Part shown: piece after piece, positions 53,707 to 61,751 of the stretch
How the letters are laid out: each line of letters begins with the position of its first letter
Numbering within the stretch: the stretch's first letter is position 1
Virus record (IMG/VR): IMGVR_UViG_3300020465_000016
Span: 1-61,751 of that record
Strand: one strand, 5' to 3'
DNA from: a virus
DNA length: 61,751 nt
Position numbers and translations under genes: made by a program
The notes under the pieces: generated by a model
What the model saw: only the letters and a program-made list of their open reading frames with translations
Database searches by the model: none
Told to the model about the DNA's origin: nothing

Positions 53707-53712
53707 ATTTTT

Positions 53713-53880
53713 GTTGAGTTGACGAACGCAACACGGGAGTGACTGAACAAACTTGCTGGCATAAGGCTAGTTAAGGTGATGAGACACAGGTGGTGCTGCA
53801 CGTTGAAAACGTGAATCGACTTACCAGTCGGGTCTCAGACGGTAAGGTAAAAATCTACTAATGTAGCAATGCCCCTTACC
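53713..53880 (+). ncRNA. structured RNA candidate (leader or free RNA)
   Basis: The stretch lacks a credible gene but is full of helices: CTGGC/GCTAG (53756-53760 with 53766-53770), a three-way junction closed by TGAGAC/GTCTCA (53780-53785 with 53832-53837) holding CACGTT/AACGTG (53799-53804, 53808-53813) and CGACT/AGTCG (53817-53821, 53826-53830), then GGTAAGG/CCTTACC (53841-53847, 53874-53880) around CTAC/GTAG. It could be a riboswitch-type leader for 53919 (wcaG or manA motifs are known from cyanophages) or an independent RNA. Confidence 0.55.
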
Positions 53881-53918
53881 TGTTGGTACACATTAATCCA
53901 ACCTCCCACCCCACCACA

Positions 53919-57944: not shown

Positions 57945-57973
57945 AAGGGGTTCAACACAGTTGACCCCTTTTT
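57945..57973 (+). terminator. hairpin with T-run at the psbA transcription start
   Basis: AAGGGGTTCAAC (57945-57956) pairs with GTTGACCCCTT (57960-57970) with one bulged T, loop ACA, then T-run. It ends the upstream transcript and lies where the psbA message would begin. Confidence 0.8.
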
Positions 57974-58013
57974 ATATCCTCAAACCGAGATCACGGGGGT
58001 TACATCTCTCATA

Positions 58014-58037
58014 TCCACTAGTGAAGGGATTAGTGGA
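58014..58037 (+). promoter_or_regulatory. psbA leader hairpin
   Basis: TCCACTA (58014-58020) and TAGTGGA (58031-58037) form a 7-bp stem with a 10-base loop in the leader, 52 bases before psbA. PhotoRC-type RNA motifs have been described near phage psbA; this could be one, but I cannot confirm the match. Confidence 0.4.
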
Positions 58038-58088
58038 AATATCTGTATCGCTCTTACCCTTTGAGCCCTACTTATTTTTATTGTCCTA

Positions 58089-59171
58089 ATGACAACTCTT
58101 CAAAGGAAAGAACAAGGACTCCTATCTGGATGGTCTGAGTTCTGTGAGTGGGTTACAAGTACAAACAACCGCATCTATGTTGGTTGGTTTGGTGTCTTGA
58201 TGATCCCTTGCCTATTAGCAGCTACAACCTGCTTTATAATTGCTTTCATCGCTGCTCCACCTGTGGACATTGATGGAATCAGAGAACCAGTTGCTGGTTC
58301 ATTCTTGTATGGAAACAACATCATTTCTGGTGCTGTAGTTCCATCTTCTAACGCTATCGGATTACACTTCTACCCTATATGGGAAGCTGCCACACTAGAT
58401 GAGTGGTTGTATAATGGAGGTCCGTATCAGTTAGTAATCTTCCACTTCCTTATTGGAATCTCTGCCTATATGGGTAGACAGTGGGAGTTATCATACCGTT
58501 TAGGTATGAGACCTTGGATCTGCGTTGCATATTCTGCACCAGTTTCAGCAGCATTTGCTGTATTCTTAGTGTATCCTTTCGGTCAGGGATCTTTCTCTGA
58601 TGGTATGCCTCTAGGTATCTCAGGTACATTTAACTTTATGTTTGTATTCCAAGCAGAACACAACATCTTGATGCACCCATTCCATATGGCAGGTGTAGCA
58701 GGTATGTTTGGTGGAGCATTGTTCAGTGCTATGCACGGTTCACTTGTTACTTCTTCTTTAATTAGAGAGACAACTGGACTAGATTCACAGAACTATGGCT
58801 ATAAGTTTGGACAAGAAGAAGAGACATACAACATCGTAGCTGCACACGGTTACTTTGGTCGTTTGATCTTCCAGTATGCATCATTCAACAACTCTCGTTC
58901 ACTACACTTCTTCCTTGCTTCTTGGCCTGTGATCTGTGTGTGGTTAACATCAATGGGTATCTGTACAATGGCATTCAACCTTAACGGTTTCAACTTCAAC
59001 CAGTCAGTCGTAGACGCATCTGGTAAGGTTGTTCCTACTTGGGGTGACGTTCTTAACAGAGCAAACCTTGGTATGGAAGTAATGCACGAGCGTAATGCTC
59101 ACAACTTCCCACTTGACCTAGCATCTGCTGGTTCATCAGAGGTTGCACTTATTGCTCCTTCAGTTGGTTGA
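58089..59171 (+). CDS. psbA: photosystem II reaction centre protein D1
   Basis: 360 residues. Five transmembrane helices with the standard D1 sequence: [118 protein letters not shown]. The residue equivalent to position 130 is Gln (D1:1-like). It ends with a short C-terminal extension after ALASA-type processing site (LDLASA). No intron or split. Keeps photosynthesis working during infection. Confidence 0.98.
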
Positions 59172-61545: not shown

Positions 61546-61574
61546 TTGACTATATATTATACCTGTGTTAGTAT
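61546..61574 (+). promoter_or_regulatory. sigma70-type promoter of the riboswitch transcript
   Basis: TTGACT (61546-61551), 17 bases, TAGTAT (61569-61574). Transcription would begin about 61581, the first base of the aptamer-like element. Confidence 0.55.
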
Positions 61575-61581
61575 TAACACA

Positions 61582-61639
61582 ATCGTTCAACCCAGAAGGG
61601 TCGCAAGTAAGCCGACACGGAACGGATCGTTCATCCCAG
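61582..61639 (+). promoter_or_regulatory. glutamine-riboswitch-like leader (glnA/DP motif) with alternative hairpin
   Basis: CGTTC (61584-61588) pairs with GAACG (61620-61624), ACCC/GGGT (61590-61593 with 61598-61601), then CGCAAGTAAG and a CCG/CGG stem (61612-61620): the layout of the glutamine aptamer as I know it. A second copy ATCGTTCATCCCAG (61626-61639) can pair with the same GAACG (CGTTC 61628-61632), so the two structures exclude each other. The start ATG is at 61641. Confidence 0.7.
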
Positions 61640-61640
61640 T

Positions 61641-61751
61641 ATGTTTCATCTAGCAGCTATTGCAGCAACTTTCTCTTGTGTTGATGCTCAACTTCTTATT
61701 GATAAGATGTATGAGTTCAATGTAGAGGAAGAGACACGAGCAGAAATGATT
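61641..61751 (+). CDS. start of a gene continuing past the window (signal-peptide-like N-terminus)
   Basis: Only 37 residues are in the window. MFHLAAIAATFSCVDAQLLIDKMYEFN starts with a hydrophobic stretch like a signal or anchor, then a helical part. It is the gene controlled by the glutamine-riboswitch-like leader. Function unknown. Confidence 0.6.
   Translation, partial: MFHLAAIAATFSCVDAQLLIDKMYEFNVEEETRAEMI

Follow-up and report, generated by a model that had tools for sequence, protein, structure and literature searches.

The locus at the end of the window

The window, as we call the whole analysed stretch of DNA, is a virus record of 61,751 bases and, judged by its sequence, it is a fragment of a T4-like cyanophage. 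Its last 250 bases matched 88 phage records, all of them Synechococcus or Prochlorococcus phages and related marine viruses. At gathering thresholds the Rfam models reported only two RNAs in it, a strong manA RNA (53712-53912, 167 bits) and a PhotoRC-II RNA (57962-58050, 50.5 bits) just 5′ of the psbA (D1) gene at 58089. The record stops 111 bases into a gene that begins at 61641.

Upstream of this gene a sigma-70-type promoter is predicted on the + strand at 61546-61574 (9 of 12 matches in a consensus scan), with the -35 hexamer TTGACT at 61546-61551, a 17-nt spacer and the -10 hexamer TAGTAT at 61569-61574; TTGACT and an AT-rich -10 are again present upstream of the relatives described below. 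The palindrome GTGTTAGTATTAACAC (61565-61580, no strand assigned) is centred on the -10 hexamer, and palindrome arms of at least 5 bp were found at the same place in 149 of 202 distinct relatives vs 26 after shuffling. The letters of these -10 palindromes differ between relatives (GTGTTAGTATTAACAC, GGTCTATAATAGACC, GGTATGCTAACATACC) while the symmetry is kept, and they may form an operator or a hairpin.

The promoter is followed, on the + strand, by a series of short conserved strands. CGTTC (61584-61588) precedes the hairpin ACCC-AGAA-GGGT (61590-61601), which is joined by the linking strand CGC (61602-61604) to AAGTA (61605-61609), and the position of CGCAAGTAAG, at 61602-61611, was confirmed. 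The strand AGCCGACA occupies 61610-61617 and is followed by the hairpin GGAACG-GAT-CGTTC (61619-61632; GAACG 61620-61624, GAT 61625-61627, CGTTC 61628-61632) and by TCCC (61634-61637). The ATG at 61641 opens an ORF (MFHLAAIAATFSCVDAQLLIDKM..., 61641-61751) of which the first 37 codons are present before the window ends, and which resembles the phrog_504 small proteins with two cysteines. The gap between CGTTCA and ATG is 7 nt in the window, vs the usual 3-5. The two 14-mers ATCGTTCAACCCAG (61582-61595) and ATCGTTCATCCCAG (61626-61639) share 13 of 14 bases, and no further 14-mer within two mismatches of the repeat occurs on the + strand of the whole window. A first-pass annotation had described this near-repeat, an aptamer-like 5′ half and the GAACG/CGTTC pairings, and all three are present at these positions.

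That annotation proposed a glutamine aptamer and a covariance search with the Rfam glutamine models. The Glutamine model (RF01739) matches 61582-61628 with 31.6 bits (E=1.8e-4) and the Glutamine-II model (RF01704) matches 61581-61630 with 26.2 bits (E=7e-4) and four broken pairs, so that the search found its matches, both of them below the gathering scores of 35 bits (RF01739) and 33 bits (RF01704). When ten relatives were scanned, the RF01739 gathering score was reached only by L012 (41 bits, full 86 nt) and L079 (36 bits, 5′ half). The proposal of a glutamine aptamer in a cyanophage is borne out.

Relatives and their architectures

The near-repeat was found again in more than 200 cyanophage loci. 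Viral contigs were scanned with a pattern of the 5′ half only (CGTTCA, P2, CGNAAGTA) and loci were read among the matches listed; the outcome was the same in two more scans, of which one used only the inner core as anchor and the other only the 3′ half. Two architectures were found. In one of them the near-repeat CGTTCATCC opens a second hairpin, behind which come CGCAA, a stretch of variable sequence, GAAGGAACG, a Shine-Dalgarno sequence and a gene whose product begins MAxVTYRGVxYD. The second architecture is that of the window: here an ATG comes directly after the second CGTTCATCCC, and the inner ORF of 49-66 codons ends in TGGGACGCAAACGACTGAAGGAACGG or a variant of it wherever the contig reaches the ORF end. 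TGGGACGCAAACGACTGAAGGAACGG is the missing second half of the element, with the ORF stop codon inside it; the second hairpin thus carries the ORF as an insertion in its loop. Every complete inner-ORF locus of the 5′-anchored scan has this 3′ half. The gene had been taken to lie simply downstream of the switch; it lies inside it.

Among 227 parsed loci, 127 carry an inner ORF only, 59 no ORF, 30 both ORFs and 11 an outer ORF only, and in 41 of the 227 the outer P2 thus holds an ORF instead of a hairpin loop. Cultured phages are found in these groups: Syn19 has gp186 as outer and gp187 as inner ORF, P-HM1 has gp179 as outer and gp180 as inner ORF with gp181 following, and P-SSM7, P-SSM2 and P-TIM40 have an inner ORF. 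S-CREM1 (L005) and AG-345-P14 (L002) are ORF-less members. The outer P2 loop ORFs have 59-75 codons and end at GACGCAAGTAA or GRK* (L248, L258, L280, L396, L400 and others). A family with the motif LRCEDxxWLxxGLEET occupies the inner slot in L106 and L057 and the outer slot in L280. In many loci (L004, L005, L032, L271 and others) the near-perfect hairpin TTCGCTATTCGCAAATAGCGAA fills P2 or P2′ in the manner of a mobile hairpin.

Two loci can be 90-97% identical in their 5′ halves and still have a different ORF content, which indicates that the loop gains and loses ORFs. The window itself has a 5′ half that is 93-94% identical to those of the ORF-less L014, L017 and L002, and an ORF that shares 65-73% identity with the inner ORFs of L330, L121, L060, L357 and L022; in each of these five the ORF ends in the 3′ half of the switch. 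For the window this half falls beyond the record and would, going by these relatives, have the same form. The bare inner-core pattern CGGAACGG-N1-4-CGTTCATC gave at least 119 matches in cellular genomes; neither the 5′ nor the 3′ half lay beside it in any of the 119 matches listed there, which are chance matches only, so that chance is excluded for the element.

A probable nested fold with two cores

Very probably, 61584-61637 is the 5′ half of a nested glutamine riboswitch with two cores, which overlaps the 61641 ORF's stop codon with its 3′ half and carries this ORF in its P2′ loop. The prediction that the outer core is a Glutamine-I aptamer, with P1, P2, loop E, P3 and a long-range pair, is well supported. 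It is likewise well supported that the outer P3 is capped by a second predicted core, which has the same conserved nucleotides in a circularly permuted strand order, and that small ORFs of one protein family sit in the P2′ loop, in the P2 loop, in both or in neither.

The outer core begins with its 5′ half at 61584-61617 and is completed after the gene, in relatives, by CGACUGAAGGAACGG. The CGTTC at 61584-61588 is the 5′ strand of the outer P1, and its native partner is a GAACG past the gene, outside the window, as indicated by RNAalifold and pair counts in ORF-less relatives and by long-range covariation. Next to the P2 hairpin, AAGTA is the 5′ half of loop E, in accordance with the RF01739 consensus and with its invariance in our alignment (A1); the GAA half lies past the gene and outside the window, and the distal [G/A]AAGGAACG is present in all full-length relatives. 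The three-way junction of P1, P2 and P3 with its long-range pair is present in full-length relatives by RNAalifold and covariation, and the window has the 5′ strands of it. The 5′ strand of P3 at 61610-61617 has as its partner, in relatives, TGCCGACT or CGACT at the ORF end. The inner core, grafted on P3, has the order GGAACGG-NN-CGUUCA-P2′-CGC in about 230 cyanophage loci; the hairpin at 61619-61632 is its P1′, and TCCC is the 5′ strand of its P2′, with GGGA at the ORF end as the 3′ strand. A second glutamine site in the inner core is putative, since this core has no loop E. RNAalifold, run unprompted on 48 ORF-less relatives, paired the first CGTTC with the last GAACG (outer P1) and formed P2, the hairpin of GGAACG with the second CGTTC (P1′) and P2′.

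In both crystal structures a pair is formed by the linker base that follows CG and the base that follows GAACG (PMC6698751). The corresponding outer pair, of C61604 with the base after the distal GAACG, was C-G in 172 loci and G-C in 23, and C-G in 151 and G-C in 27 of 178 unique rows, with no exception in either count. In the inner core, where G61625 has the C of the distal CGC as its partner, the pair was G-C in 193 of 195 loci. Cells changed on both sides numbered 118, vs 27.5 in shuffles. P3 covaries as AGTCG/CGACT, AGTCA/TGACT and AAACGAC/GTTGTTT; five of its pairs changed on both sides, and its last pair (pair 8) occurs as A-U, U-A and G-C. In the long variants of P3, such as that at 61610-61617, C.A mismatches are kept at pairs 3 and 6 in most loci, and these may possibly be wobble pairs with a function.

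P1 and P1′ are invariant outside three loci and are there uninformative on structure, for or against. In the three loci (L019, L340 and L378) both strands of P1′ have changed together (GCAACG/CGTTGA) and the first CGTTCA is unchanged. The hairpin GAACG-GAT-CGTTC, which had been read as a strand-exchange hairpin, can form; these loci make it a conserved P1′ of the inner core and not just an anti-aptamer.

Pairing across the ORF

Pairs 1-4 of P2′, which join sequence 5′ of the ATG to sequence at the stop codon, are formed across the ORF in 119, 119, 118 and 119 of 119 unique inner-ORF rows. Pairs 3 and 4 occur as C-G, U-A, A-U and U-G, and the matching per locus was above all 2000 permutations. 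In L058, L069 and L120 a T-A pair of P2′ has become C-G, and the protein has changed from WDA to WGA. The codon of the C-terminal Asp is GAC in 60 of 60 cases, vs 43 of 160 elsewhere in the ORFs, where it is mostly GAT, and that of the C-terminal Ala is GCA in 59 of 59, vs 91 of 206 elsewhere in the ORFs. In L044 and L304, with an earlier stop codon, and in L107, with another frame, the 3′ half of the RNA is still kept and is no longer a C-terminus. The pairing across the ORF, the invariant codons and these three loci together indicate a constraint on the RNA; conservation of the C-terminal WDAND for the protein alone is ruled out by the codons and by L044, L107 and L304.

The ORFs are nevertheless coding, with a third-position excess and a frame that is kept in 155 of 156. 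Profiles of the inner and outer ORFs match each other (hhalign 96.8%, E 2.9e-10). AlphaFold predicts for the enclosed protein a short hydrophobic N-terminal helix and a two-helix hairpin, and two cysteines are invariant. The protein has no Pfam match; its PHROG matches, phrog_504 and phrog_13397, are families without an assigned function, and no PDB relative was found by sequence or by fold. It was matched by 318 phage records when full-length relatives served as queries; a tblastn search with the 37-residue fragment of the window, a short and divergent query, gave no match. Two records named as Vibrio phages also match the embedded-ORF protein.

The DUF4278 gene and the proposed switch

The gene past the element is DUF4278-like (Pfam 20-24 bits, just under the cut-off; phrog_5049/545). 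In cyanobacteria both types of glutamine riboswitch precede DUF4278 genes and activate expression on glutamine, and this kind of protein is linked to glutamine synthetase control (PMC6316151). At the DUF4278 Shine-Dalgarno lies CUU[C/U]AGGAG, and the strand CU[G/A]AAGG is complementary to it (CUNAAGG against CUUYAGGAG); this strand supplies loop E, the beginning of the distal P1 and the stop codon of the ORF. The two variable positions are coupled: A occurs with U 36 times and with C 0 times, and G with U 38 and with C 48 times (Fisher p 2.9e-10, the loci being counted as independent despite their relatedness). Disjoint closest pairs of loci gave 11 concordant double changes and no A-C combination, and the rule holds in loci with and without an ORF. 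In thermodynamic folds, which have no ligand or tertiary terms, the probability of the outer P1 without ligand fell from 0.83 to 0.06 once the downstream Shine-Dalgarno region was added.

Because this platform covaries and sequesters the Shine-Dalgarno, the element is probably a glutamine ON switch for DUF4278. We infer the direction of switching from homology and from the Glutamine-I/II reporter data reviewed in PMC6316151 and PMC6698751. When glutamine is present, the nested fold would close and the DUF4278 Shine-Dalgarno would be freed (ON), and the start region of the embedded ORF would be buried between P1′ and P2′ (OFF). Without glutamine, the embedded ORF would be translated and the elongating ribosome would itself unwind the 3′ half. 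Since the start region has P1′ and P2′ on its two sides and a passing ribosome has to open the 3′ half, the embedded ORF would not be translated while glutamine is bound, and vice versa. Termination at the ORF stop could also by itself free the DUF4278 start.

Alternative explanations

One possible option is that offered by the first-pass annotation: a single short aptamer, whose P1 joins the first CGTTC to the first GAACG, with the hairpin of this GAACG and the second CGTTC as strand-exchange expression platform of the 61641 gene. Both helices can form, and the claim that two CGTTC strands compete for one GAACG agrees with thermodynamic folding, in which the first pairing prevails in the nascent RNA as long as the second copy has yet to be made (0.96 for the window and 0.77 on average); afterwards the second hairpin displaces it or takes a share. 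Yet only 4 of 227 full-length elements have the first pairing in their MFE structure, no GAA half of loop E adjoins the first GAACG, the G-type loci would need a G-G long-range pair, the GCAACG/CGTTGA loci break this helix and keep P1′, and the second half of the aptamer is conserved past the gene. We consider this reading quite unlikely. The native partner of the first CGTTC is the second GGAACG, past the gene, and the long-range pair fits nesting only; as a native fold the single aptamer with strand exchange was rejected on the long-range pairs and the GCAACG loci, and the pairing of the first CGTTC with the first GAACG would be transient during transcription. An extremely unlikely reading is that of two sequential tandem aptamers, each CGTTC paired with the GAACG that follows it and the ORF inserted in the second. 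Glutamine riboswitches often occur in tandem, with 157 doublets reported (PMC9481103), and the invariant strands permit either pairing. Against this, the sequential long-range bases pair in 83% of cases without covariation, whereas the nested ones pair in 100% of the ORF-less relatives with covariation (C-G 40, G-C 8); AAGTA occurs in the first unit only and GAA in the second only, and covariation links the P3 strands of one unit to those of the other. Sequential pairing fails in every G-type locus, where G-G and C-C pairs would result, and in 23 loci the long-range bases fit the nested pairing only; it was therefore rejected.

Another hypothesis, very unlikely in our view, is that the locus is a shuffling module at the DNA level, in which cassettes of a promoter and a stem-loop, similar to PeSLs, flank mobile small ORFs and spread them by homologous recombination with no ligand-dependent function. 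PeSLs mediate shuffling in T4-like phages (as cited in PMC4503421). ORF-bearing and ORF-less 5′ halves are up to 97% identical, one ORF family is found in both slots, and the ORFs are small and stand behind an early-type promoter. However, the compensatory pairs across the ORF (G-U included), the long-range core pair, loop E and the covariation coupled to the Shine-Dalgarno are RNA features, which recombination alone would not keep. Shuffling may explain how ORFs enter and leave the loops of the nested riboswitch.

Discussion

The element described here is similar to several known systems and differs from each of them. Its outer core has the CGUUCA, P2 hairpin, CG[G/C]AAGUA, GAAGGAACG and long-range pair after GAACG of Glutamine-I (glnA RNA, RF01739), and it lies upstream of DUF4278 genes as in cyanobacteria (PMC6316151). 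Unlike Glutamine-I, it has a second core, circularly permuted, on its P3, the one or two ORFs that the P2 loops can hold split the aptamer by 130-240 nt each, and the window alone is under the gathering cut-off. The inner core shares with Glutamine-II (Downstream-peptide, RF01704) the strands CGUUC, CGC and GGAACGG and the C-G long-range pair (in the 193 of 195 loci above; structure in PMC6698751), and it too adjoins the start codon of a short ORF. In contrast to Glutamine-II it has no H-type pseudoknot, its order is permuted, with GGAACGG and CGUUC side by side as the two strands of a hairpin, and the ORF is inside the element, not after it. As in tandem glutamine riboswitches (PMC9481103), two cores of the same ligand class occur in one leader, but here one core is nested in the P3 of the other and not serial, with long-range pairs that fit nesting only.

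PeSL cassettes of T4-type phages combine small ORFs with stem-loops and early promoters, and group I introns carry ORFs in the loops of a structured RNA. The former may resemble our locus, where a promoter, a palindrome and the gain and loss of ORFs were seen, and the latter resemble it in their ORF-bearing loops; unlike the introns, the element has no splicing core, and unlike both, its conserved parts are a ligand-binding core with covariation.

It was already known that glnA RNAs occur in cyanophages (PMC9964418, PMC10665884, PMC9004378), and those of S-CREM1 (PMC9964418), annotated as a 99-nt glnA match, and of AG-345-P14 (PMC9004378) are the same element. Both reports treat it as one aptamer, and no mention of a second core or of enclosed ORFs was found in PMC9964418 or PMC9004378. 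In the literature searched, a set that leaves aside the primary glutamine-riboswitch papers, no description of the nesting, the permuted core or the enclosed ORFs was found, nor any earlier report of a natural aptamer split by, and closing around, a complete protein-coding gene or of a natural permuted riboswitch core nested in the P3 of another. We have filed the element as a new glutamine-riboswitch variant with a gene-enclosing architecture.

The wider reading, to which we lean with some reserve, is that this is a riboswitch that carries whole genes in its ligand-binding fold, with nested cores that can each enclose an ORF, with translation and the bound fold excluding each other, and with the same strands switching DUF4278. 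The occurrence of the element in the well-studied cyanophages P-SSM7, Syn19, Syn33, P-HM1 and S-ShM2 makes this testable. Two families of short "hypothetical" cyanophage genes would be explained, and the C-terminal DAND or DAKAD of their proteins would be dictated by the RNA. If the reading is true, a metabolite brings the start and stop codon regions of a gene together while ribosomes and ligand compete for the same strands, and marine cyanophages would possess a three-gene metabolite toggle that reads the nitrogen state of the host, which would tie infection to host glutamine and to the DUF4278 protein.
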